Assembly: GCA_020845575.1 (NCBI GenBank)
Contig: JADLFL010000027.1
Location: 1-64,000 of the forward strand
Origin: Acidobacteriota bacterium
Lineage (GTDB): Bacteria; Acidobacteriota; Vicinamibacteria; Vicinamibacterales; Vicinamibacteraceae
DNA length: 64,000 nt
Reading direction: 5' to 3'
This document shows, piece after piece, positions 1,867-53,558 of the stretch. Position numbers and translations under genes: made by a program. The notes under the pieces are model-generated. The model saw only the letters and a list, made by a program, of their open reading frames with translations. It did no database searches and was not told the DNA's origin. Numbering within the stretch: position 1 is the stretch's first letter; the number at the start of each line of letters is the position of its first letter.

Positions 1867-3402
<1,536 letters not shown>

Positions 3403-3441
3403 ACGTCAGCGTTCGGATGGGTGCTGAGTGTCGCGGCAGGC

Positions 3442-3984
3442 TCAGCCCTGCTGCGCGATCTGCTCCTTCAAGCGGGCGAGTTGTCTGGCGAGGCTGCCGT
3501 CGTAGACGAGGCTGCCCACGCGCGTGATGGCGCCGCCGATGACGGCGGGATCGACCTTCGTGGTGATCGCGACCCGGGATCCGAGGGCCTGCGCCAGCGC
3601 GTCCTGCAGGCGCGACGTTTGGCCCTCATCGATCGCCACCGCCGTCGTCACGTCGACGTCGACGCGGCGTTCCTCGCGGTGCACCAGCGTCTCGAATTCC
3701 CTGACGATGGCGGGGAGGTCGTCGGCGTGCCTGGTGTCGGCCAGGATCGTGAGGAGCGTGCGCGCGGCAGGCGGCGCCCCGATCGCGTCGGCGACCTGCT
3801 CGACGATCGCGCGCTTGGCGGCGGGCGGTACGAACACCGACATCACGGCGTCGCGGAGTTCGCCATGCGAGTCGAGCAACGCGGTGAAGGCGTGGAGGCC
3901 ATCGAGCGTCTGACGCGCGATGCCCTGGTGCTGCGTCGCCTGGAAGAGCGCGCGGCCCGCACGTCTGGCTTCGAGGGACGTCAT
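3442..3984 (-). CDS. atpH: F-type ATP synthase delta subunit
   Basis: Delta links the peripheral stalk (b subunits) to the top of the F1 head. The 180-residue protein matches the OSCP/delta family: an N-terminal helical bundle and a C-terminal segment with the family pattern around KVDPAVIGGAITRVGSLVYDGS. It starts 4 bases inside the end of atpF, implying translational coupling. Delta sequences diverge widely, so the assignment rests on this C-terminal signature, the length and the position between b and alpha. Confidence 0.93.
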   Translation of the reverse strand: MTSLEARRAGRALFQATQHQGIARQTLDGLHAFTALLDSHGELRDAVMSVFVPPAAKRAIVEQVADAIGAPPAARTLLTILADTRHADDLPAIVREFETLVHREERRVDVDVTTAVAIDEGQTSRLQDALAQALGSRVAITTKVDPAVIGGAITRVGSLVYDGSLARQLARLKEQIAQQG

Positions 3985-4646
3985 GCCAGGTTCCTCATGC
4001 GTGTCGCGTAATCATCCACCAACGCATGCTGCTCGGCGTGCGTCAGCGTGGCGCGGAGGCGCGCATCGGCGACGTCGACAATGAGTGCGGCCGCTTCGGC
4101 GCGGAGCTCGGTGCGCGCGTGGCGCGTCTGCGCGGCGATCTCGCGGCGTGCCTGATCGACGAGACGGTCGCGCTCGACTTCGGCGGCGGTCCTGATGCGC
4201 GTGCGCTCCGCGTCGAGCTCTTCGGCCCCTCGGCGGCGGAGATCCTCGAGTTCGCCCGGGAGCGCGGCGAGACGGGCTTCGATCGTCGCGAGGCGTTCGG
4301 TGGCAGCGGTGCGCATCTCCGCGGCGTCGACGAGATCCTTGCGGATCTGCGCGCCGCGCGCGGTGAGGTGATCGGCGAGCGGCTTGCGGGCCAGCCAGTA
4401 GATGACACCGACGAGGATCGCGAAGTTGGCCAGGCGCGCCAGCGTCACGAGCACGCTCTCGCCGTGCTCCTCGCCGTGGCCGGCCGGCGCGTGAGCGTCG
4501 GTCGCGTGCGCGGCCGCGGCACCGTGATCGTCAGCGGGCTGTGCCTGAAGCGCTGGCGCAAACGACAGGAGTGCCGCGACGGCGAGCGCTGCCGGCATCA
4601 GGCGCAGAAAGGTCGTTGGCGTGGCGTTGGACATCGCGGTGCGCAT
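3981..4646 (-). CDS. atpF: F-type ATP synthase b subunit with an N-terminal extension
   Basis: This is the peripheral-stalk b subunit of Fo. At 221 residues it is longer than the usual 155-170. The extra part is a hydrophobic, signal-like stretch ending near ALQA (about residues 11-35) and a His/Ala/Asp-rich linker (about 36-62). The normal single membrane segment follows (FAILVGVIYWLA, about 73-84), then a long charged coiled coil. The first of two possible starts (MRTAMSNATP) overlaps the stop region of the second b-type gene; MSNATP is the alternative. A tandem b/b' pair is usual in organisms with heterodimeric stalks. Confidence 0.88.
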   Translation of the reverse strand: MRTAMSNATPTTFLRLMPAALAVAALLSFAPALQAQPADDHGAAAAHATDAHAPAGHGEEHGESVLVTLARLANFAILVGVIYWLARKPLADHLTARGAQIRKDLVDAAEMRTAATERLATIEARLAALPGELEDLRRRGAEELDAERTRIRTAAEVERDRLVDQARREIAAQTRHARTELRAEAAALIVDVADARLRATLTHAEQHALVDDYATRMRNLA

Positions 4647-5068
4647 CAGTGGGTCCGCCCGGCGAGACGATCGGCCACCTGCTGACCGAGCTGTTGCGCG
4701 TCCTGCTGGAGCTGGGCGCGGGCCGCGGCCGTGTCTGCGGCAAGGGTCCGTCGCGCCGCGGCGAGCTCCTGCTCGGCCTGCGTCCGGGCCGACGCGATCA
4801 TCTCGGTGCGCTCGTCCTGCGACTGCTTCCGCATGTCATCGAGCTCGCGATAGAAGGAGGCGCGGGCCGCGGCGGTCTTGGCGTCGAACTCCTCACCCGC
4901 GCGATGGGCCTCCGCCGCGCTGCGCTCCGCCATGACGCGCGCGGATCGCACGGCGTCCTCCCGCGCGTGCATGACGCGCAGCAGTGGCTTGAAGAACAGC
5001 TGCTGAAGGACGACAGTCAGCAGCAGCACGAACGCAATGACCCACAGGACCGACAGGTCCGGTAACAC
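4646..5068 (-). CDS. F-type ATP synthase b-type (b') subunit
   Basis: This second peripheral-stalk subunit has 140 residues. A single membrane helix lies near the N-terminus (LWVIAFVLLLTVVLQQLFF, about residues 7-25) and the rest is a charged coiled coil rich in Ala, Glu, Arg and Gln. The chosen start is GTG at 5068, because GGAGG lies 4 nt upstream and the protein then begins just before the membrane segment; an in-frame ATG at 5161 would add an unlikely Arg-rich leader. It is the first gene of the visible operon; no atpB (a) or atpE (c) gene lies upstream before selD. Confidence 0.85.
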   Translation of the reverse strand: MLPDLSVLWVIAFVLLLTVVLQQLFFKPLLRVMHAREDAVRSARVMAERSAAEAHRAGEEFDAKTAAARASFYRELDDMRKQSQDERTEMIASARTQAEQELAAARRTLAADTAAARAQLQQDAQQLGQQVADRLAGRTH

Positions 5069-5164
5069 GGTGCCTCCGGGAGTATGCCGACGAGGGCGGG
5101 CTGCACCCCGCCGCTGGCAAGACGCGGGCACTGGGGCGACTCGGCGTGCCCGCCGAAACACAGA

Positions 5165-5194
5165 CTTATACCACTATCGCCGGCAGACGTGCAA
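5165..5194 (-). promoter_or_regulatory. Candidate sigma-70 promoter for the atp operon
   Basis: Read on the minus strand, a TTGCAC hexamer (5189-5194) is followed after 18 nt by TATAAG (5165-5170), about 95 nt before the b' start. This is a reasonable housekeeping promoter for the b'-b-delta-alpha-gamma-beta operon. The surrounding gap (5069-5364) shows no convincing gene. Confidence 0.45.
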
Positions 5195-5364
5195 TACAAG
5201 GGGGTTTGCCGTCGTACGGGGATGGACGGCGGCGCACCACCGCAGGTGGCGTGGCTTGGCGTGCCCACCGAGTCATGCGACGTCTCTCCAGGGGGCTGGC
5301 GCGGAGAGCCGGCCTGCCGTCTGTGGCGGGAGGGGGGGCGGCCCTCCGGCCCCGACCGTAGGCG

Positions 5365-46176: not shown

Positions 46177-49149
46177 ATGCGCTGCCGCCGAGGCCTCGCC
46201 GCCCGTACGCTCGGCCTGCTCCCGGGCCTGGTCGTCGCCACCGTCGCTGCGACGCCCCTGGCGGCGCAGCCGCGTCACGATTCGCCGGTGCTGCAGCAGT
46301 ATCTTCGCGCCGAGGGTCTTGGCAACCTTGGTGTTTCGGCGCTGCACCAGGACGCGGAAGGCACGCTGTGGGTTGCCACCGAGGGCGGCCTGTACCGGCA
46401 CGACGGGGACCGCCTGCGTGCGGTGTCCGTGCCCGTGGAGGATCGCGGCGGTGTGGTGCGCGGCGTGGTCGCCGATGGCGAGGGCGGTCAGTGGATCGCC
46501 ACGGCAGGCAGGCTGCTGCACCGCCGTTCCGACGGCACGCTGCGGCAGGTGTCGGCACCTGGTCGCGTGCTGCGCCCGCTGGCCTGGCAGCCGATGCAGC
46601 AGCTCGGTGGCGGCCGCCTGCTGGTCAACGCACTCGACCCCGCGACAGGGGGACGCGACCTGTTTCTCGTGCAGCGGACCGGCGACGGCTGGGAGGTCGC
46701 GCCGGCGCTTGCCGACCAGATGGCGACCTGGAGTGAGGCCGACAGACAGGTGCGGCTCATCGCCGTGGCACCCGATGGCACGTGGTGGTTCGGGTGCGGC
46801 GCGTTCCTCTGCAGCCGTACCGGCACGTCGCTCCAGCAGTGGTCCGTGCCCCTCGATGACTATGTGCCTACGGCGCTGCGTCAATTGCTCCCGGTCGCCG
46901 ACGGGTCACTGTGGGTACTCACGCAGGGCGCGCTGCTGCACATGCAGGACGGGCGGTTCACCGACATGACGCCGCCGGCCTTCCGCGCCAGACAGGACCG
47001 CGCATCTCCGGCGCTGATCCAGGACCATGCGGGCCGCATCCTGTTTGCCAGCCAGGACACGCTCTATCGCCTCGACGGCACGACGTGGCGATCGTGGGGG
47101 CCGGAGTCAGGACTCGTCACCGGCTCGCAGATCAATGCGCTGCTCCAGGACGCCGACGGCGATCTCTGGTACGGCAGTCTGGGCCAGGGCCTCCTGCGCT
47201 GGAGCGGCTACCGTCACTGGACGGCGTGGACGGCGGGCGAGGGACTGTCCAACGCATCGGTGTGGGCCATCGTGGCCGACAGGGCCGGCACGATGTGGCT
47301 GGCCACGGTTCGCGGACTGGCGCGGTCGTCACGGATGTCGCCGCTGGCCTTCGACATGGCGGCATCCGAGCTGGACAGCCGTGCCGACATCACCGATCTC
47401 ATCGCCGATGCCGAAGGCGTCCTCTGGACGTACGACCCGAGCCGCGGCCTGCTCCGTCGTCCCGCCGGCGGATCGTGGACGCAGGTTGCCGAGCCCATGC
47501 CCGACGTGATGCGGATGGCCGTTGCCGGTCCGATGGCGTGGATCATCACGGCACAGGGCTTGTGGCAGGTAGACACCAGCCTGCCGCCGCCCGTGACACC
47601 CCGGCGGGTCGAGATCCCCGCGAGGACCGGTCCGCTGGAGATGTTCGACATGTGCGTGGACGGGCGCCAGCAGGTGTGGATCGCACACCGCAACGGCCTG
47701 CTCCTCCACGACGCCGACGGGCTGCGCGCAGCCACGGTGGAGGGACTTCCGCCGCGATCGGGAGCTTCCATCCTGCGCTGCGACACCGACAGCGTCCATG
47801 CGATCACCTTCGACGAAACGCTCATCGAGATCGACATCCGCCGCCGGCGCGCGCAGCGCATCGAGGTGCCCCGACACGACGGGATGATCCTGCTCTCGGT
47901 CCTGCGCGACAGGCGGGACAGGCTGTGGGTGGGCACCGATCGCGGCGTGCTGGTCCGCGCCGACGGGCAGTGGCGACTGTTCGACCATGGCGACGGCCTG
48001 GTGTGGGACGACACCAACCAGTGGGCGCTCGACGAGGGGCCCGACGGCGCCATCTGGATCGGTACCAGCCGCGGCCTCGGGCGCATCGATGATCCCGACG
48101 CTCTCCTGCAGAAGGCCGACGCGCCGCTGCCCCTGCGCGTGGTCGACGCCAGCTATGGCGACCAGACATTCCGTCAGGGAGAGGCGTCGCAGGTCCTGCA
48201 ATGGACGCGACGTCCGCTGACAGTCCGCTGGTCCGTGCCGTACTACGGCAATCGCGCAGGCCTGCACACGCGCTACAGGCTGCTCGGCCTGGACGACGAG
48301 TGGCAGGAGACGGCGATCGGCGAGATCCAGTACGCCGCACTGAGCCCGGGGAGCTACACGCTGGAACTGCAGGCGGTGGACCGATTGAACGGTCGGCGCA
48401 GTGCGGTGATCACGAGAGCCTTCGAAGTGGCAGCGCCGTGGTGGCGCAGTGCGCCGGCGTCGATCGCCGGCGGGCTTGTCGTCCTCGGCGTGGGCTGGGG
48501 GGCGCTGCGGTGGCGCCTGAGTCATCTCGTGCGTCGGCAGACGGAACTCGAAGCGCTCGTGCAGGAACGCACGCGCGCGCTCGCCGACTCGCACGCCGCC
48601 CTCGAGCGTCTGGCCCTGACCGACGCCTTGACGGGGACGATGAATAGGCGGGCCGTGATGGGGGCGGCCGAGGCCCAGGTCGCGCAACTGCTTCGGCGCG
48701 GCGGCGCACTGACGCTCGTGCTCGCCGACCTCGACGACTTCAAGCGGACCAACGACGTGCACGGGCACCTCGTGGGCGACGCGCTGTTGCGGGCCGTTGT
48801 CATCCGCCTCCAGCACGCGTTGCGCGAGGGCGACCTCCTCGGGCGCTACGGTGGCGAGGAGTTCCTGATCGTGCTGCCGGGCCTGTCCATGGACGATCCC
48901 GCCGGGGCGGCACGTGTTCGTGCGGTGTGCCAGACCGTTGCCGCACAGCCCTTCGACGTGGGAAGCGCCGAGCCGCTGGGCGCGACCTGCAGCATGGGTG
49001 CCGCCAGCCTTCGCGTCTCGTCCGATGGCTCCACGGCCGCCGCGGCACCAGTGCTGACCGCACTCATCACGCGGGCCGACGCCGCGCTTTATCGCGCCAA
49101 GGCCGCGGGGCGCAACCAGGTGGTGACGGCCGACGAATCAGCGCCGTGA
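46177..49149 (+). CDS. Propeller-sensor diguanylate cyclase (Reg_prop, Y_Y_Y, GGDEF)
   Basis: This 990-residue membrane sensor probably makes cyclic-di-GMP. A signal peptide ([15 protein letters not shown]) leads to a large periplasmic two-component-type beta-propeller with repeated blades such as [16 protein letters not shown] and [19 protein letters not shown] domain (about 675-745), one membrane helix (about 755-775), a coiled-coil linker and a GGDEF domain (from about 815) follow. The active site is GGEEF near 892, and REGD five residues before it is the inhibitory I-site. No receiver or histidine kinase is present. The ligand is unknown. Confidence 0.92.
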
Positions 49150-49173
49150 ACGTGCGGCCGTCCGGAGGATGCG

Positions 49174-49200
49174 TGTCACACGGCGTGGCTATGTCACACG
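49174..49200. repeat. Direct repeat TGTCACACG (two copies) before the TonB leader
   Basis: TGTCACACG occurs at 49174-49182 and 49192-49200, 18 bp apart, in the gap after the cyclase gene. It could be a regulator site for the receptor operon; nothing else supports this. Confidence 0.35.
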
Positions 49201-49275
49201 TCAGGCTTCTCTTTCCAATCCAACCGCGTACGCTGTGAAGACCGGCGTGCGGCAGGTGCCGCGCCCGTGAACGCC

Positions 49276-49380
49276 ATGCACATCCTTCGCAGCCTTCGTC
49301 AGCGCCGCCCATCGACAGTTGCCCTCGCCGGCACCTGCTGTATGGCACCCGCCGCCTGTCGTCCCTGCGCCTGTAGGTAG
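49276..49380 (+). CDS. Possible Cys-rich leader peptide upstream of the TonB receptor
   Basis: A 34-residue frame starts MHILRSLRQRRPSTVAL and ends in a Cys-rich tail, TCCMAPAACRPCACR, with five Cys in the last 14 residues. A GTG three codons earlier is also in frame. It lies 157 nt before the receptor start, and the segment between is full of inverted repeats. Short Cys-rich ORFs of this kind serve as cysteine-sensing attenuators in mycobacteria; the match here is only in layout. No strong ribosome-binding site is seen. Confidence 0.4.
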   Translation: MHILRSLRQRRPSTVALAGTCCMAPAACRPCACR

Positions 49381-49478
49381 CCTCGCGCGCGTCCGACGCG
49401 CGGGGTTCAGCCATCGAACAGTGCGAACGGCTCGACGAGCCGTCGCTATCCGGTTCCCCTGAAGGGCGACGTGTCGCG

Positions 49479-49526
49479 CGATGCGCGTGCGGACGCCCTC
49501 CGGCGCGGCGTCCGCGTCGCGCATCG
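49479..49526 (+). promoter_or_regulatory. 18-bp leader hairpin abutting the receptor ribosome-binding site
   Basis: CGATGCGCG (49479-49487) pairs with CGCGCATCG (49518-49526), and GCGGACGCC (49489-49497) with GGCGTCCGC (49507-49515), around a 9-nt loop; only one T faces GT in the stem. The Shine-Dalgarno GAGAGG begins at the last stem base, 49526. Smaller inverted repeats (GCGAC/GTCGC at 49466-49477, CGGCTC/GAGCCG near 49430) could form alternatives. Confidence 0.65.
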
Positions 49527-49537
49527 AGAGGATTTCC

Positions 49538-52348
49538 ATGTCTGCGTTCCGCTTCCATTCGAGTTGGCCGGTCTGGCTGCCTGTCGCGATCCTCCTCCTG
49601 CTGCCCCTTCCAGGTCGTGCGCAGCCGGCAGCCGGCATCGTTGGCGTGGTGGTCGACGATCAGGGCCGCGTCCTTCCCGGGGTGACGGTGGACGTCACGA
49701 GCCCCGCGCTCATCGAGCGCAGCAAGACGACCGTCACCGCGGAGGACGGGCGGTATCAGGTCGTGGACCTGCGCCCGGGTCAGTACGAAGTCACGTTCAC
49801 GCTGGAGGGGCTCCAGACCGTCCGCCGCACCGGCATCGCGCTCAGCACCGGCTTCACGGCGACAGTCGATGCGCGTCTGTCCATCGGACAACTCCAGGAC
49901 GAGGTCACGGTGCGCGGCGGCGCGCCTGTGATCGACACGCGATCGGGCACGTCCGAGCGTCCGCTGCACCAGGAACTCATCGAGGGCATTCCCGTCGGCC
50001 GCGTGCCCAATGTCGCCGTCAGTCTCGTTCCGGGTGCAGTGACGGCACGGCCCGACATCGGTGGATCCGAGACGGGCCAGACGGCAGGCGTCTCGATCCA
50101 CGGCTCGCAGACGCGCGATCTGATCTGGAACACCGATGGGCTGAACACGACGTCCAACACCGGCAGCGGCGGCGTGTCGGGGCAGTATCCGAACCAGAGC
50201 GCCATCCAGGAGATCGTCGTGCAGACGCGGGCGCTGCCGGCCGAGATCGGCGCGGGCGGCGTGAGCGTCAACATGATCACCAAGGACGGCGGCGCCACGT
50301 ATCGCGGCACGTTGTTCGGCACCTACACCAACAACAACTTCCAGAACGCGAACGTCAGCGACGACCAGGCCGCGCGCGGGTTGGTCGCGCCGAGCGCCAT
50401 GGACACCTTCTACGACCTGAACGGCGGGATCGGCGGACCGATCGCGCGCGACTCGCTGTGGTTCTTCGCGAGCGCCAGGCGGTTCCGCGTGGATCGCTTC
50501 GAGGCCAACACGTTCAACCCCGACGGCTCGCAGGCGCTCGACGAGAACCTGATCTGGAACGCGGGTGGCAAGGTCACCTGGCAGGTCAACTCGGCCAACA
50601 GGCTCTCGAGCTTCGTGGACTACAACTACAAGATCCGCGAACACCGCCGCGAGATCACCTCGACGTACCAGTTCGTCTCTCCCGAGGCGAGCTACAACTC
50701 GCCGCTGTGGGGACCGGTGGCCAACGTGAAGTGGACGTCGACGCTGGGCCCCACGGTGCTGCTGGACGCGGGCGTGTCGTGGTACTACGTGCCGTGGTCG
50801 CTCGACTATCAGCCCGATCTCGATTCGAACGCGTTCGCGCGCAACGACCTCGCGCTGTCGACGCTGACGGGCGCACCGCCGCCCTCGATGGTACGTGCCA
50901 ACCAGGAGCGGCGCACGGCGAGCGCCGTCGTGTCGTGGTTGCCCCGCTTCCGCGGTGAGCACCAGATCCGGGGCGGCGTCCAGTTCGAGCACGCGCCGTA
51001 CGGGCAGACGTTCGACTCGCTCGGCCACGGCGACTTCATCGCGCGATACCGCAACGGCGTGCCCGACTCGGTGATGGTCTACAACACGCCGGTCGAGACC
51101 AACCTGCAGCAGTCCGATCTCGGCGTCTTCGTGCAGGATGCCTGGGCGATCAGCCGCCGGTTGACGCTCAATCTCGGCCTCCGGTACGAGCGCCACACGG
51201 GCGGGCTCGGCGAGCAGTCGGCGGGCGCCGGACAGTTCGTGCCGGCGCGCAGCTTCGAGGCGCAGAAGGACCTCGTCGTGTGGAACACGATCGTCCCGCG
51301 TCTGGCGGCAACCTACGACATCTCGGGCCAGGGACGGACCGTCGTCAAGGTCAGCGCCAGTCAGTACACGCAGCGGCAGGGATCGGCGCTCATCAACCAG
51401 TTCAGTCCGATGCGGCAGAACAGCGAGGTACGGTCATGGGTCGACGGCAACGGCGACAGCGTGCCGCAGCTCGGCGAAATCGGCCCGTCGCTCGGCGGCC
51501 TCGATCGCGGCGCGACGGTGCGTATCGATCCGCAGCTCCGCCGGCCGACGCAGTGGGAATACGCGGCGACCGTCGAACACCAGCTCGGCACCGACTTCGC
51601 CGTCGCCCTGAGCTATTTCCACCGGCGCTACAAGAACCTGACGGCCGTCGTGAATGCCGCCGTGTCGTTGGACGACTACACGCCGCTCGAGATCACGAAC
51701 CCGCTCGACGGGTCGCCGCTCACGATCTACAACCAGACCGCCGCGAGCATCGGCCGCGTCGACAACGTGCTCACGAACGTGCCGACCCTCGAGCAGACCT
51801 ACCATGGCCTCGAAGCCACGGTGAACCGCCGGTTCAGCGACGGCCTCACGCTGTTTGGCGGCGTGACGCTCGGCCGCAACCGCGCGACGAGCCTGTCGGC
51901 GGTGGGCGGCAATCCGAACGGCTACATCAATGCCAACGGTTTCGACCTGCTCGACTCGCCGCTCATCGTCAACGTCTCGGGCATCTACCAGTTGCCCTGG
52001 CAGGTGTCGCTGTCGGGACACCTGGGCTACTACACCGGCCAGCCGCTGCGCCGCCTGTACACCGTCACGCGCACGATCGCGCCGACGCTGCGCCAGGTGA
52101 GTCAGGAAGTCGCGTTGCTGCCCGCCGGCGACCAACGGAAGCCCAATCAGACGCTGCTCGACCTTCGCGTCGGCCGCAGCTTCCGCCTCGGTCGCGGCCT
52201 CTCCGTGGAGCCGCTGCTCGAGGTCTACAACCTGCTGAACGAGAACGCCTCGGTCACCGAGGTGGAACAGGTCGGCCCGGCACTCGGCCGCGTCTCCCGC
52301 AACCTGGACGGACGTCTGCTGCGCGTCGGCGTGAAGGTTGCCTTCTGA
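49538..52348 (+). CDS. TonB-dependent receptor with carboxypeptidase-regulatory domain
   Basis: This 936-residue outer-membrane protein is a TonB-dependent-type receptor of the Acidobacteriota style. A signal peptide (VAILLLLPLPGRAQ) is followed by a carboxypeptidase-regulatory-like beta-sandwich (about 31-110: GVVVDDQGRVLPGVTVDV, DGRYQVVDLRPGQY), a plug region (about 115-260) and a long barrel ending in VGVKVAF with the terminal Phe. No clear TonB box is seen. The start at 49538 has GAGAGG 6 nt upstream. The ligand is unknown; it is followed by the M29-like lipoprotein, probably in one transcript. Confidence 0.88.
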   Translation: MSAFRFHSSWPVWLPVAILLLLPLPGRAQPAAGIVGVVVDDQGRVLPGVTVDVTSPALIERSKTTVTAEDGRYQVVDLRPGQYEVTFTLEGLQTVRRTGIALSTGFTATVDARLSIGQLQDEVTVRGGAPVIDTRSGTSERPLHQELIEGIPVGRVPNVAVSLVPGAVTARPDIGGSETGQTAGVSIHGSQTRDLIWNTDGLNTTSNTGSGGVSGQYPNQSAIQEIVVQTRALPAEIGAGGVSVNMITKDGGATYRGTLFGTYTNNNFQNANVSDDQAARGLVAPSAMDTFYDLNGGIGGPIARDSLWFFASARRFRVDRFEANTFNPDGSQALDENLIWNAGGKVTWQVNSANRLSSFVDYNYKIREHRREITSTYQFVSPEASYNSPLWGPVANVKWTSTLGPTVLLDAGVSWYYVPWSLDYQPDLDSNAFARNDLALSTLTGAPPPSMVRANQERRTASAVVSWLPRFRGEHQIRGGVQFEHAPYGQTFDSLGHGDFIARYRNGVPDSVMVYNTPVETNLQQSDLGVFVQDAWAISRRLTLNLGLRYERHTGGLGEQSAGAGQFVPARSFEAQKDLVVWNTIVPRLAATYDISGQGRTVVKVSASQYTQRQGSALINQFSPMRQNSEVRSWVDGNGDSVPQLGEIGPSLGGLDRGATVRIDPQLRRPTQWEYAATVEHQLGTDFAVALSYFHRRYKNLTAVVNAAVSLDDYTPLEITNPLDGSPLTIYNQTAASIGRVDNVLTNVPTLEQTYHGLEATVNRRFSDGLTLFGGVTLGRNRATSLSAVGGNPNGYINANGFDLLDSPLIVNVSGIYQLPWQVSLSGHLGYYTGQPLRRLYTVTRTIAPTLRQVSQEVALLPAGDQRKPNQTLLDLRVGRSFRLGRGLSVEPLLEVYNLLNENASVTEVEQVGPALGRVSRNLDGRLLRVGVKVAF

Positions 52349-52373: not shown

Positions 52374-53558
52374 GTGAATTCCCAGATGTACGCGGCCGCT
52401 TCGGAGCGCCGTTTCCAACGTTCCCGGACTGCCGCGGCGGTCCTCGTCCTCGCGCTCGGTGCCGGCGCATGCTCGTCGCCTGCCGAGTCGCCGGCGCCCG
52501 CGACCTCTGCGCCCGCACCCGCGAGCGGCTTCGCGTACCCGTACCCCGCGCTGGCGACGCGCATCGTCGACGCGCTGAAGCCGTCGGCCGGCGAACGCGC
52601 GCTGCTGCGCTACAACCCGAACCAGCTCGGGCCGCTCGAAGCCGAATTGAAGCGGCAGCTCGAGGCGAAGGGCGTCGTCGTGCGATCGCAGCTCTATACC
52701 GACAGCACCGACTTCGCGGCGCGTCTCGCGGAGACCGACATCTACGTGTGGCTGCCGGCGGGTGACACGCCGGCGGCGGCCGAGGATCGGGCTCTGCTCG
52801 CCAAATGGCTGGACGAGGGCCGCGGCCGCCAGATCCACTTCCACTGGGAAGGCGGCACGCGCGACGCCGACGGCCTGCAGGTGGCGCACTCAGAGGCCTA
52901 CGACCGGGTGTACGTCGACGCCCTCGACATCGACTACGCGGCACTCAGCCAGCGGCAGGACCGCGCGATCGCGATCCTGCGTGCGGGTGAAGTGCACGTG
53001 ACCTCGCCCGAGGGCACGGACCTGCGTTTCACCATCGGTCCCGACCGTCCGTTCAGCAAGCAGGACGGCGACGCATCGGCCGAACGCATGAAGACGGCGA
53101 AGGTGCGTGTGGACCGCGAGATCGAGCTGCCGGCCGGCGTGCTCCGCGTGGCGCCGCTCGAGGAGACGGTCAACGGCACGCTGTTCGTGCCGCGCGCCCG
53201 CTTCGGCGACGTGACGGCCACGGGTATCCGACTCACGTTCACGAAGGGCGTCGTGTCCGATGTGACGGCCGAGACCAACCTCGATGCCGTGAAGGGGTTC
53301 CTGGCGTCGGCACCCGGCGCGTCGCACTTCCGTGAGCTGTGCCTCGGCTTCAATCCGAAGCTGAACGTGCCGGCTGGCCAGACGGCGCTGCCCTATTACG
53401 GCTACGGCGACTCGGTTGCGCGGCTCGGTCTCGGTGACAACTTCGAGGTCGGCGGCAACGTGCGCGGCGGCGGTGTCCGCTGGCTCTTCTTCCCCAACAC
53501 GACGATCACCGTGGGCGACACGGTGCTCGTGAAGGACGGCAAGCTGACCGGCATCTGA
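52374..53558 (+). CDS. Lipoprotein with an M29 aminopeptidase-like domain
   Basis: The N-terminus has a hydrophobic stretch ending LALGAGACSS, a plausible though imperfect lipobox, then a Pro/Ala linker. The roughly 340-residue domain resembles M29/aminopeptidase T proteins: ALKPSAGERALLRYNPNQL, VNGTLFVPR, RELCLGFNPKL and GDNFEVGGN. Where M29 enzymes end with metal-binding HxD, this has RWLFF, so some ligands may be lost and activity is doubtful. GTG at 52374 follows AGGAG by 8 nt; ATG at 52386 is the alternative. It is 25 bp after the receptor gene. Confidence 0.6.
   Translation: MNSQMYAAASERRFQRSRTAAAVLVLALGAGACSSPAESPAPATSAPAPASGFAYPYPALATRIVDALKPSAGERALLRYNPNQLGPLEAELKRQLEAKGVVVRSQLYTDSTDFAARLAETDIYVWLPAGDTPAAAEDRALLAKWLDEGRGRQIHFHWEGGTRDADGLQVAHSEAYDRVYVDALDIDYAALSQRQDRAIAILRAGEVHVTSPEGTDLRFTIGPDRPFSKQDGDASAERMKTAKVRVDREIELPAGVLRVAPLEETVNGTLFVPRARFGDVTATGIRLTFTKGVVSDVTAETNLDAVKGFLASAPGASHFRELCLGFNPKLNVPAGQTALPYYGYGDSVARLGLGDNFEVGGNVRGGGVRWLFFPNTTITVGDTVLVKDGKLTGI

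Follow-up and report, generated by a model that had tools for sequence, protein, structure and literature searches.

A cysteine-rich frame upstream of a TonB-dependent receptor gene

In the 64-kb stretch of DNA analyzed here, which we call the window, a gene for a TonB-dependent receptor with a CarboxypepD_reg N-domain lies on the forward strand at positions 49538–52348 (PF25183, PF00593 and PF13620). It is followed on the same strand by a gene for an M29-type metallopeptidase (52386–53558); PF02073 matches part of this protein with an E-value of 2.9e-9, and its start appears lipoprotein-like, with a candidate lipobox. Upstream, also on the forward strand, Pfam identifies a Reg_prop propeller/Y_Y_Y/GGDEF diguanylate cyclase gene (46177–49149), which is not part of the element described here. 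ATG 49538, from which a signal-peptide-like sequence is read (MSAFRFHSSW...), is the most likely start of the receptor; the longest open reading frame formally runs from ATG 49481. A contig search with the receptor returned no close relative, and plasmid and PDB searches returned no informative one; the weak plasmid matches of the receptor included Granulicella and Acidisarcina.

With the receptor start taken as ATG 49538, the gap between cyclase and receptor is 388 nt long (49150–49537). It contains a forward-strand mini-ORF at 49276–49380, consisting of 34 codons and a TAG stop (49378–49380) and encoding the peptide MHILRSLRQRRPSTVALAGTCCMAPAACRPCACR; an in-frame GTG at 49267 is an alternative start that would give 37 codons. 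Five Cys codons (49336–49374; TGC TGT ... TGT ... TGC GCC TGT) begin at 49336, 49339, 49357, 49366 and 49372. Three are UGU and two UGC, and all fall within the last 14 codons. The first-pass annotation had described a frame of 34 codons, five of them for Cys and near its end, in a 388-nt gap, and this description is borne out. The mini-ORF has no clear Shine-Dalgarno sequence and no match in Pfam or NCBIfam, and a search of the whole window against the Rfam cis-regulatory families at the gathering score gave no match, with tRNA as the only hit.

In 2000 dinucleotide shuffles of the window gap, a frame with at least five Cys in its last 24 codons arose in 0.3%. Across both strands of the whole 64-kb window, nine frames have a like Cys content, so that the Cys-rich frame alone would be weak evidence; it is conservation that makes the evidence strong.

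Upstream of the mini-ORF, the forward strand carries a direct repeat of TGTCACACG (49174–49182 and 49192–49200; 49174–49200 overall), the two copies standing 18 nt apart. Judged from its sequence, the repeat is a possible regulator site. The sequences TATGTCACA, upstream of the leader in G001, and TATGCCACAC, in G003, occur at nearly the same distance as in the window, some 85 nt before the ATG of the leader (loci L005 and L004).

Conservation of the leader beside receptor orthologs

Receptor orthologs were sought in 60 relatives, 50 of which had a match at an E-value of up to 1e-40, and then in 162 genomes of the order, 18 of which had a match at up to 1e-160. Three other orthologs with 66–75% identity were found, two in the same genus (G003 and G001) and one in another family of the order (G059). 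An M29-type peptidase with 60–69% identity stands beside the receptor in all three (L053–L055), and no cyclase ortholog was present in the 2.5–4.2 kb upstream of them. Counting the window, a Cys-rich mini-ORF with 5–8 Cys lies upstream of four of four receptor orthologs, and a counterpart of the frame is thus found beside every ortholog. The mini-ORF peptides of the three other orthologs, all ended by TAG, read ...RMTMCACCCPSCICR, ...RMTMCACRCSCPCCH and MVRLPFFCCCCCRSPRGRCHVQG.

With the threshold set at five or more Cys among the final 20 residues of a frame no more than 700 nt upstream, all four orthologs were positive. Among 37 other sampled receptors none reached four Cys and three reached three, these controls being a sampled subset of the receptor matches that does not include a receptor of a different kind in G075, which has a Cys leader. 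The starts of the controls were placed by alignment, and a 38th receptor (L064), which is truncated, was left out. In shuffles of the four orthologs' gaps, five or more Cys were reached in 0.3%, 3.6%, 0.25% and 0.1%.

Comparison of the gaps located the conserved sequence. The best local match between the window and G003 lies at 49356–49388 on the forward strand and runs over the final three Cys codons and the stop into TAGCCTCGCGC; it was equalled in 0.5% of 1000 shuffles. Between G003 and G001 the best match is an 84-column block comprising the Cys tail, the stop and the next bases, which none of 1000 shuffles equalled. The match between the window and G001 is not significant (p 0.33), yet it spans both mini-ORF start codons, and the three comparisons with the G059 gap gave no significant match. 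In the multiple alignment two tail codons are missing in the window and the frame is kept.

When the 34-residue peptide was searched in the 60 relatives, it found its own locus, and all other matches had E-values of 0.01 or worse; none of the 19 other matches inspected stood, by reading alone, before a recognizable TonB gene. A profile built from the 17 other leaders of the set described below ranked the window peptide 430 of 1411 and did not recognize it. This miss says little, because hold-out profiles placed just 8 of those 17 leaders at rank 1 and missed nine, including those of G003 and G059. Another profile, A2, missed the window at E 0.05 despite containing it.

These results bear on the reading that the frame arose by chance in a G+C-rich gap, or is a decayed leader, and has no function in the window whatever relatives do. 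The abundance of such frames in the window and the failure of the profiles to recognize the peptide are in its favor. Against it, the best match to G003 coincides exactly with the Cys tail and its stop, the aligned indel preserves the frame, and such a frame accompanies every ortholog and none of the 37 other receptors. We therefore consider a chance or decayed frame unlikely.

At the G003 locus (L004, reverse complement, approximately 1100–1145) there is a further upstream frame, (V)VPACCCQPGPLHHGH followed by a stop, with a GTG start just after TATGCT. On its sequence, this frame may be an additional Cys uORF that precedes the receptor leader, with TATGCT as a candidate -10 box.

Related leaders ahead of sulfur genes

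The pattern M-x-M-C-x-C-x-C was searched in the 162 genomes of the order and matched 11 places in nine genomes, against four for a reversed-pattern control. The matches include the receptor leaders of G001 and G003, a leader before a TauE/SafE sulfite-exporter-family gene in G085 (tauE-cysD), and two leaders in G075, one before an ATP-grasp-like gene accompanied by a luciferase-like monooxygenase gene and the other before another TonB-type receptor. The G075 ATP-grasp protein has no Pfam match of its own at 1e-5 and is named by its likeness to a G394 protein that matches RimK. Five of the 11 places (L100–L104) were taken as non-leaders, and TGYTGYTGYTGY was dropped as a search motif because it is too common.

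Extending the search to 396 genomes of the phylum added four leaders, located before an ATP-grasp gene (G394), the homocysteine synthase gene metY (G401), cysD (G450) and, in G240, a gene of the NirA/sulfite-reductase family that scores below the curated cut-offs. These four came from 18 inspected loci; in eight others a single conserved enzyme-like gene is overlapped by the frame that was matched, and six were not accepted. One of the six, L180, stands before a peptidase-like frame and is perhaps a leader after all. Since the raw pattern count in the phylum, 21 places versus 15 for the control, is not strongly above background, it is the context of the leaders that carries the argument. Searches with profiles A1 and A2 produced further weak matches.

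The leader before the second TonB-type receptor of G075 (L225, G075:C177, reverse complement 2150–5293) encodes MAMCMCCCACMPRRVGVV followed by a stop. Its promoter is good, and the start of this different receptor is preceded by GC hairpins in tandem, with T-runs. At L226 (G075) and L234 (G394), which represent two families of the phylum, a Cys leader and a terminator precede the pair of RimK-like ATP-grasp and luciferase-like monooxygenase genes; from its gene content, this two-gene unit is a candidate for an unknown sulfur pathway.

The context of sulfate assimilation was surveyed with PF01507 (CysD/CysH), which gave 28 matches in 14 of 18 chosen genomes. A Cys-rich mini-ORF stands before the first gene of the PF01507 cluster in G005, G006, G029, G050 and G085; outside the window's genus, cysH is one of the genes headed by a leader. 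In the genus of the window, leaders precede operons of a sulfonate transporter (ssuA-type) and cysH in G001, G002 and G004, the SsuA family being assigned above cut-off in G001 and G004 and by likeness in G002. Of the 14 genomes that have PF01507, 8 thus carry an accepted leader, and G007 and G022 a possible one; within the stretch scanned, no convincing leader precedes PF01507 in G015, G043, G059 or G075. G001 carries both kinds, an ssuA leader (RRVCACCC...) and a receptor leader (RRMTMCACRCSCPCC...), and the ssuA leader of G004 and the receptor leader of G003 both contain ATGTGCGCCTGTTG(T/C)TGTC.

Together with the receptor leaders these make a set of 18, outside of which were kept G022 (L204/L231) and G007 (L214), where the first gene is not fixed, and a weak case before cysM in G059 (L240/L250). 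Because Cys content and position guided the selection of the 18, which was made by eye, the number of Cys in them is no evidence. U-tracts, folding of the gap and the share of UGU played no part in the choice.

UGU, the rarer Cys codon, is over-used in the set. It makes up 60 of 103 Cys codons in the 18 leaders versus 86 of 426 in genes of the sampled loci (Fisher p 2e-13), a background made up of ORFs that were selected on GC3 from the window and from loci of the order, with family f24 not included. For the four receptor leaders the share is 13/25 against the same 86/426 (Fisher p 7e-4), and for the window alone it is 3/5, which is not significant (p 0.07). In G085 the outer ATG was used as the start for codon counts and the inner ATG for the promoter and profile tests.

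Codon usage also bears on a different explanation, modelled on CruR (DUF2946). The portion of the CruR report available (PMC9426467) describes a uORF that lies upstream of the TonB receptor BfrG in Bordetella pertussis and responds to copper, with a Rho-dependent read-out, and a predicted exported protein of 145 residues that has a CXXC motif and a C-terminal RAPP. By analogy, the window mini-ORF would encode a metal- or redox-sensing nascent peptide whose Cys residues bind copper or another metal and alter arrest, and the codons would not be read. The likeness is that both are Cys-containing uORFs upstream of a TonB-dependent transporter gene, and the window peptide contains CRPC. Of the CruR traits, a CxxC is the only one the mini-ORF has: it does not match DUF2946, lacks RAPP, is 34 residues long and shows no visible export signal. 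Moreover, the leaders of relatives head sulfur-assimilation genes, and a signal at the level of the peptide does not need over-use of UGU. A CruR-like sensor is therefore very unlikely, and reading of the Cys codons is the interpretation we carry forward.

The stretch between leader stop and gene folds more stably than expected. Its mean z-score is -2.6 (n = 18) versus -0.4 for 37 control receptor upstream regions (Mann-Whitney p 2e-6), where leader gaps of 89–287 nt are compared with the 150 nt before each control receptor. The four receptor leaders have z-scores of -2.4, -2.5, -0.9 and -2.0 (p 0.001 versus controls). A hairpin with a U-tract, defined as one no weaker than -10 kcal/mol whose next nine bases include five or more T, is found behind 13 of the 14 other leaders, one of the four receptor leaders and 4 of the 37 controls. 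Among the receptor leaders there is no intrinsic terminator between mini-ORF and receptor in the window, G003 or G001; G059 alone has a hairpin within these limits, and doubtfully so. A sigma-70-like promoter (at least 8/12 matches) ends 7–13 nt before the start codon in 7 of the 18 leaders, and this proximity suggests leaderless starts there. The window, where the scan found no promoter-like site near the mini-ORF start codon, is not among the seven.

Leader folding and a proposed cysteine read-out

Directly 3' of the mini-ORF stop, a forward-strand hairpin, CCTCGCGCG/CGCGCGGGG, occupies 49381–49405; its 5' arm, GCC(T/G)CGCG, also occurs in G003 and G001. Farther downstream, an 18-bp stem without a U-tract (49479–49526, forward strand) precedes the receptor Shine-Dalgarno sequence GAGAGGA (49526–49532, forward strand). 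The stem consists of two perfect 9-bp blocks, 49479–49487/49518–49526 and 49489–49497/49507–49515, with a mismatch or bulge between them, and it ends on base 49526, with which GAGAGGA begins. The inverted repeats and the stem ending on this base, both reported in the first-pass annotation, are therefore confirmed. Over the whole region (49150–49570) folding is only mildly more stable than in shuffles (z -1.7).

The same annotation proposed that ribosomes stalling at the Cys codons could switch the leader between alternative folds and expose or hide the receptor start; in the full form of this model, the 18-bp stem would open or form as a result. A strong stem does end at the Shine-Dalgarno sequence, the last 70 nt of the window leader fold better than shuffles (z -2.5), and the predicted Shine-Dalgarno accessibility is low, at 0.13–0.19. 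Alternative pairings are also present in the leader; equilibrium folding shows no switch between them. With a ribosome parked at any of the codons tested, the accessibility in the window stays at 0.19–0.20, unmoved by the blocked footprint in a calculation that ignores co-transcriptional paths. In the three receptor orthologs a ribosome on the last Cys codon changes accessibility by -0.01, 0.00 and -0.08, and in G059 a ribosome at one earlier codon lowers it from 0.45 to 0.27, that is, toward hiding the site. When all 18 leaders were examined for such switching at the last Cys codon, a shift above 0.1 was seen only for G002 ssuA (+0.25) and G240 (+0.15). The stem, furthermore, lies outside the significant conserved blocks of the window–G003 and G003–G001 comparisons. 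Together with the lack of an intrinsic terminator, these results make a stalling-controlled start switch improbable. Conservation in homologous leaders, which had been named as a check, holds for the mini-ORF and its Cys codons, and no significant block takes in the stem. Of the attenuator reading, the Cys-codon leader is upheld by the orthologs and by the sulfur genes of relatives, and the stem-based start switch is not supported.

We conclude that 49276–49380 is probably a cysteine-sensing leader of the receptor-peptidase pair and a member of a wider set of Cys leaders that precede sulfur-assimilation operons in the window's genus, order and phylum. The sensing half of this model is well supported. 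From the sequences we infer that the mini-ORF is translated, that it responds to cysteine, and in which direction. A translating ribosome would gauge charged Cys-tRNA at the Cys codons of the mini-ORF. With plentiful cysteine it would reach the stop and leave, and expression of the receptor-peptidase pair would be cut off early; with cysteine in short supply it would halt at the Cys codons that immediately precede the stop, and the receptor and peptidase would be expressed.

For the last step in the window we tentatively favor Rho-dependent termination, relieved by the stalled ribosome, because there is no U-tract and because the four receptor leaders have gaps of 157–287 nt in which C is at or above G in all four; mycobacterial leaders and CruR offer comparisons. 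A block of translation initiation is somewhat less likely, and a terminator that works without a U-tract slightly less likely still.

Classical attenuators of the trp/his type combine a run of regulatory codons with a terminator and an antiterminator. The Cys codon cluster of the window and the terminator-like hairpin of most related leaders resemble this arrangement, whereas the window itself has no detectable terminator. The fit between the amino acid and the function of the operon, another trait of these systems, is seen in the related sulfur operons.

Polycysteine leaderless short ORFs of mycobacteria were reportedly described by Canestrari et al. in 2020. Mycobacterial polycysteine short ORFs are marked by contiguous Cys codons; the G059 ortholog has CCCCC, and the window has CC and then CxxCxC. 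According to the portions available of papers citing that work, the mycobacterial ORFs are cysteine-responsive attenuators (PMC9031893, PMC9094748, PMC13236596). Seliverstov et al. (2005) predicted cys leader peptides and, in the part of their text available, suggested Rho for mycobacterial ones without a terminator (PMC1262725), a situation like that of the window, G003 and G001. Shared with both are the short ORF, the Cys codons near the stop, the sulfur genes (in relatives) and the proposed cysteine read-out. Unlike the mycobacterial leaders, those described here belong to another phylum, have an outer-membrane receptor and a peptidase behind them in the window, and are followed by a U-tract hairpin in 13 of the 14 related cases.

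The first-pass annotation considered a cysteine-responsive leader before an outer-membrane receptor to be new. Its elements are known separately: Cys-rich regulatory uORFs occur in mycobacteria, and the copper-responsive CruR is a uORF that precedes a TonB receptor. The combination was not found: a partial literature search returned no cysteine leader peptide described in Acidobacteriota and none before a TonB receptor. A 2010 survey, in the part available, assigned almost no function to the predicted attenuators of the phylum (PMC2965389).

On a larger scale, the evidence is evenly balanced as to whether there is a phylum-wide cysteine-attenuation regulon in Acidobacteriota, in which terminator leaders would control sulfate and sulfonate assimilation and which would have been extended at least twice to outer-membrane importers, namely the receptor-M29 pair and the TonB-type receptor of G075, with the window pair scavenging cysteine-containing peptides or organic sulfur of other kinds. 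The PF01507 survey returned no gene from the window genome (G000, 95.8% complete) or from G003 (94%), and two each from G001 and G059. A receptor and peptidase for organic sulfur, as a candidate substrate class, would fit this distribution, with the reservation that the correlation holds for only two of the four ortholog species. Scavenging of organic sulfur may be most important in the species of the window, where no CysD/CysH-family gene was found. For the eight PALP (cysteine-synthase family) genes of the window genome, a scan reaching 700 nt from the domain match gave no Cys leader that is convincing.

The leader probably serves as a gauge by which import rises when cysteine is short; relatives keep it in the same position and also use such leaders ahead of sulfur-assimilation genes. 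If this is true, cysteine-reading leaders run sulfur assimilation in a large soil phylum, for which we found no prior report, and a Cys leader would provide a sequence handle on TonB receptors, predicting sulfur import by the receptor behind it.
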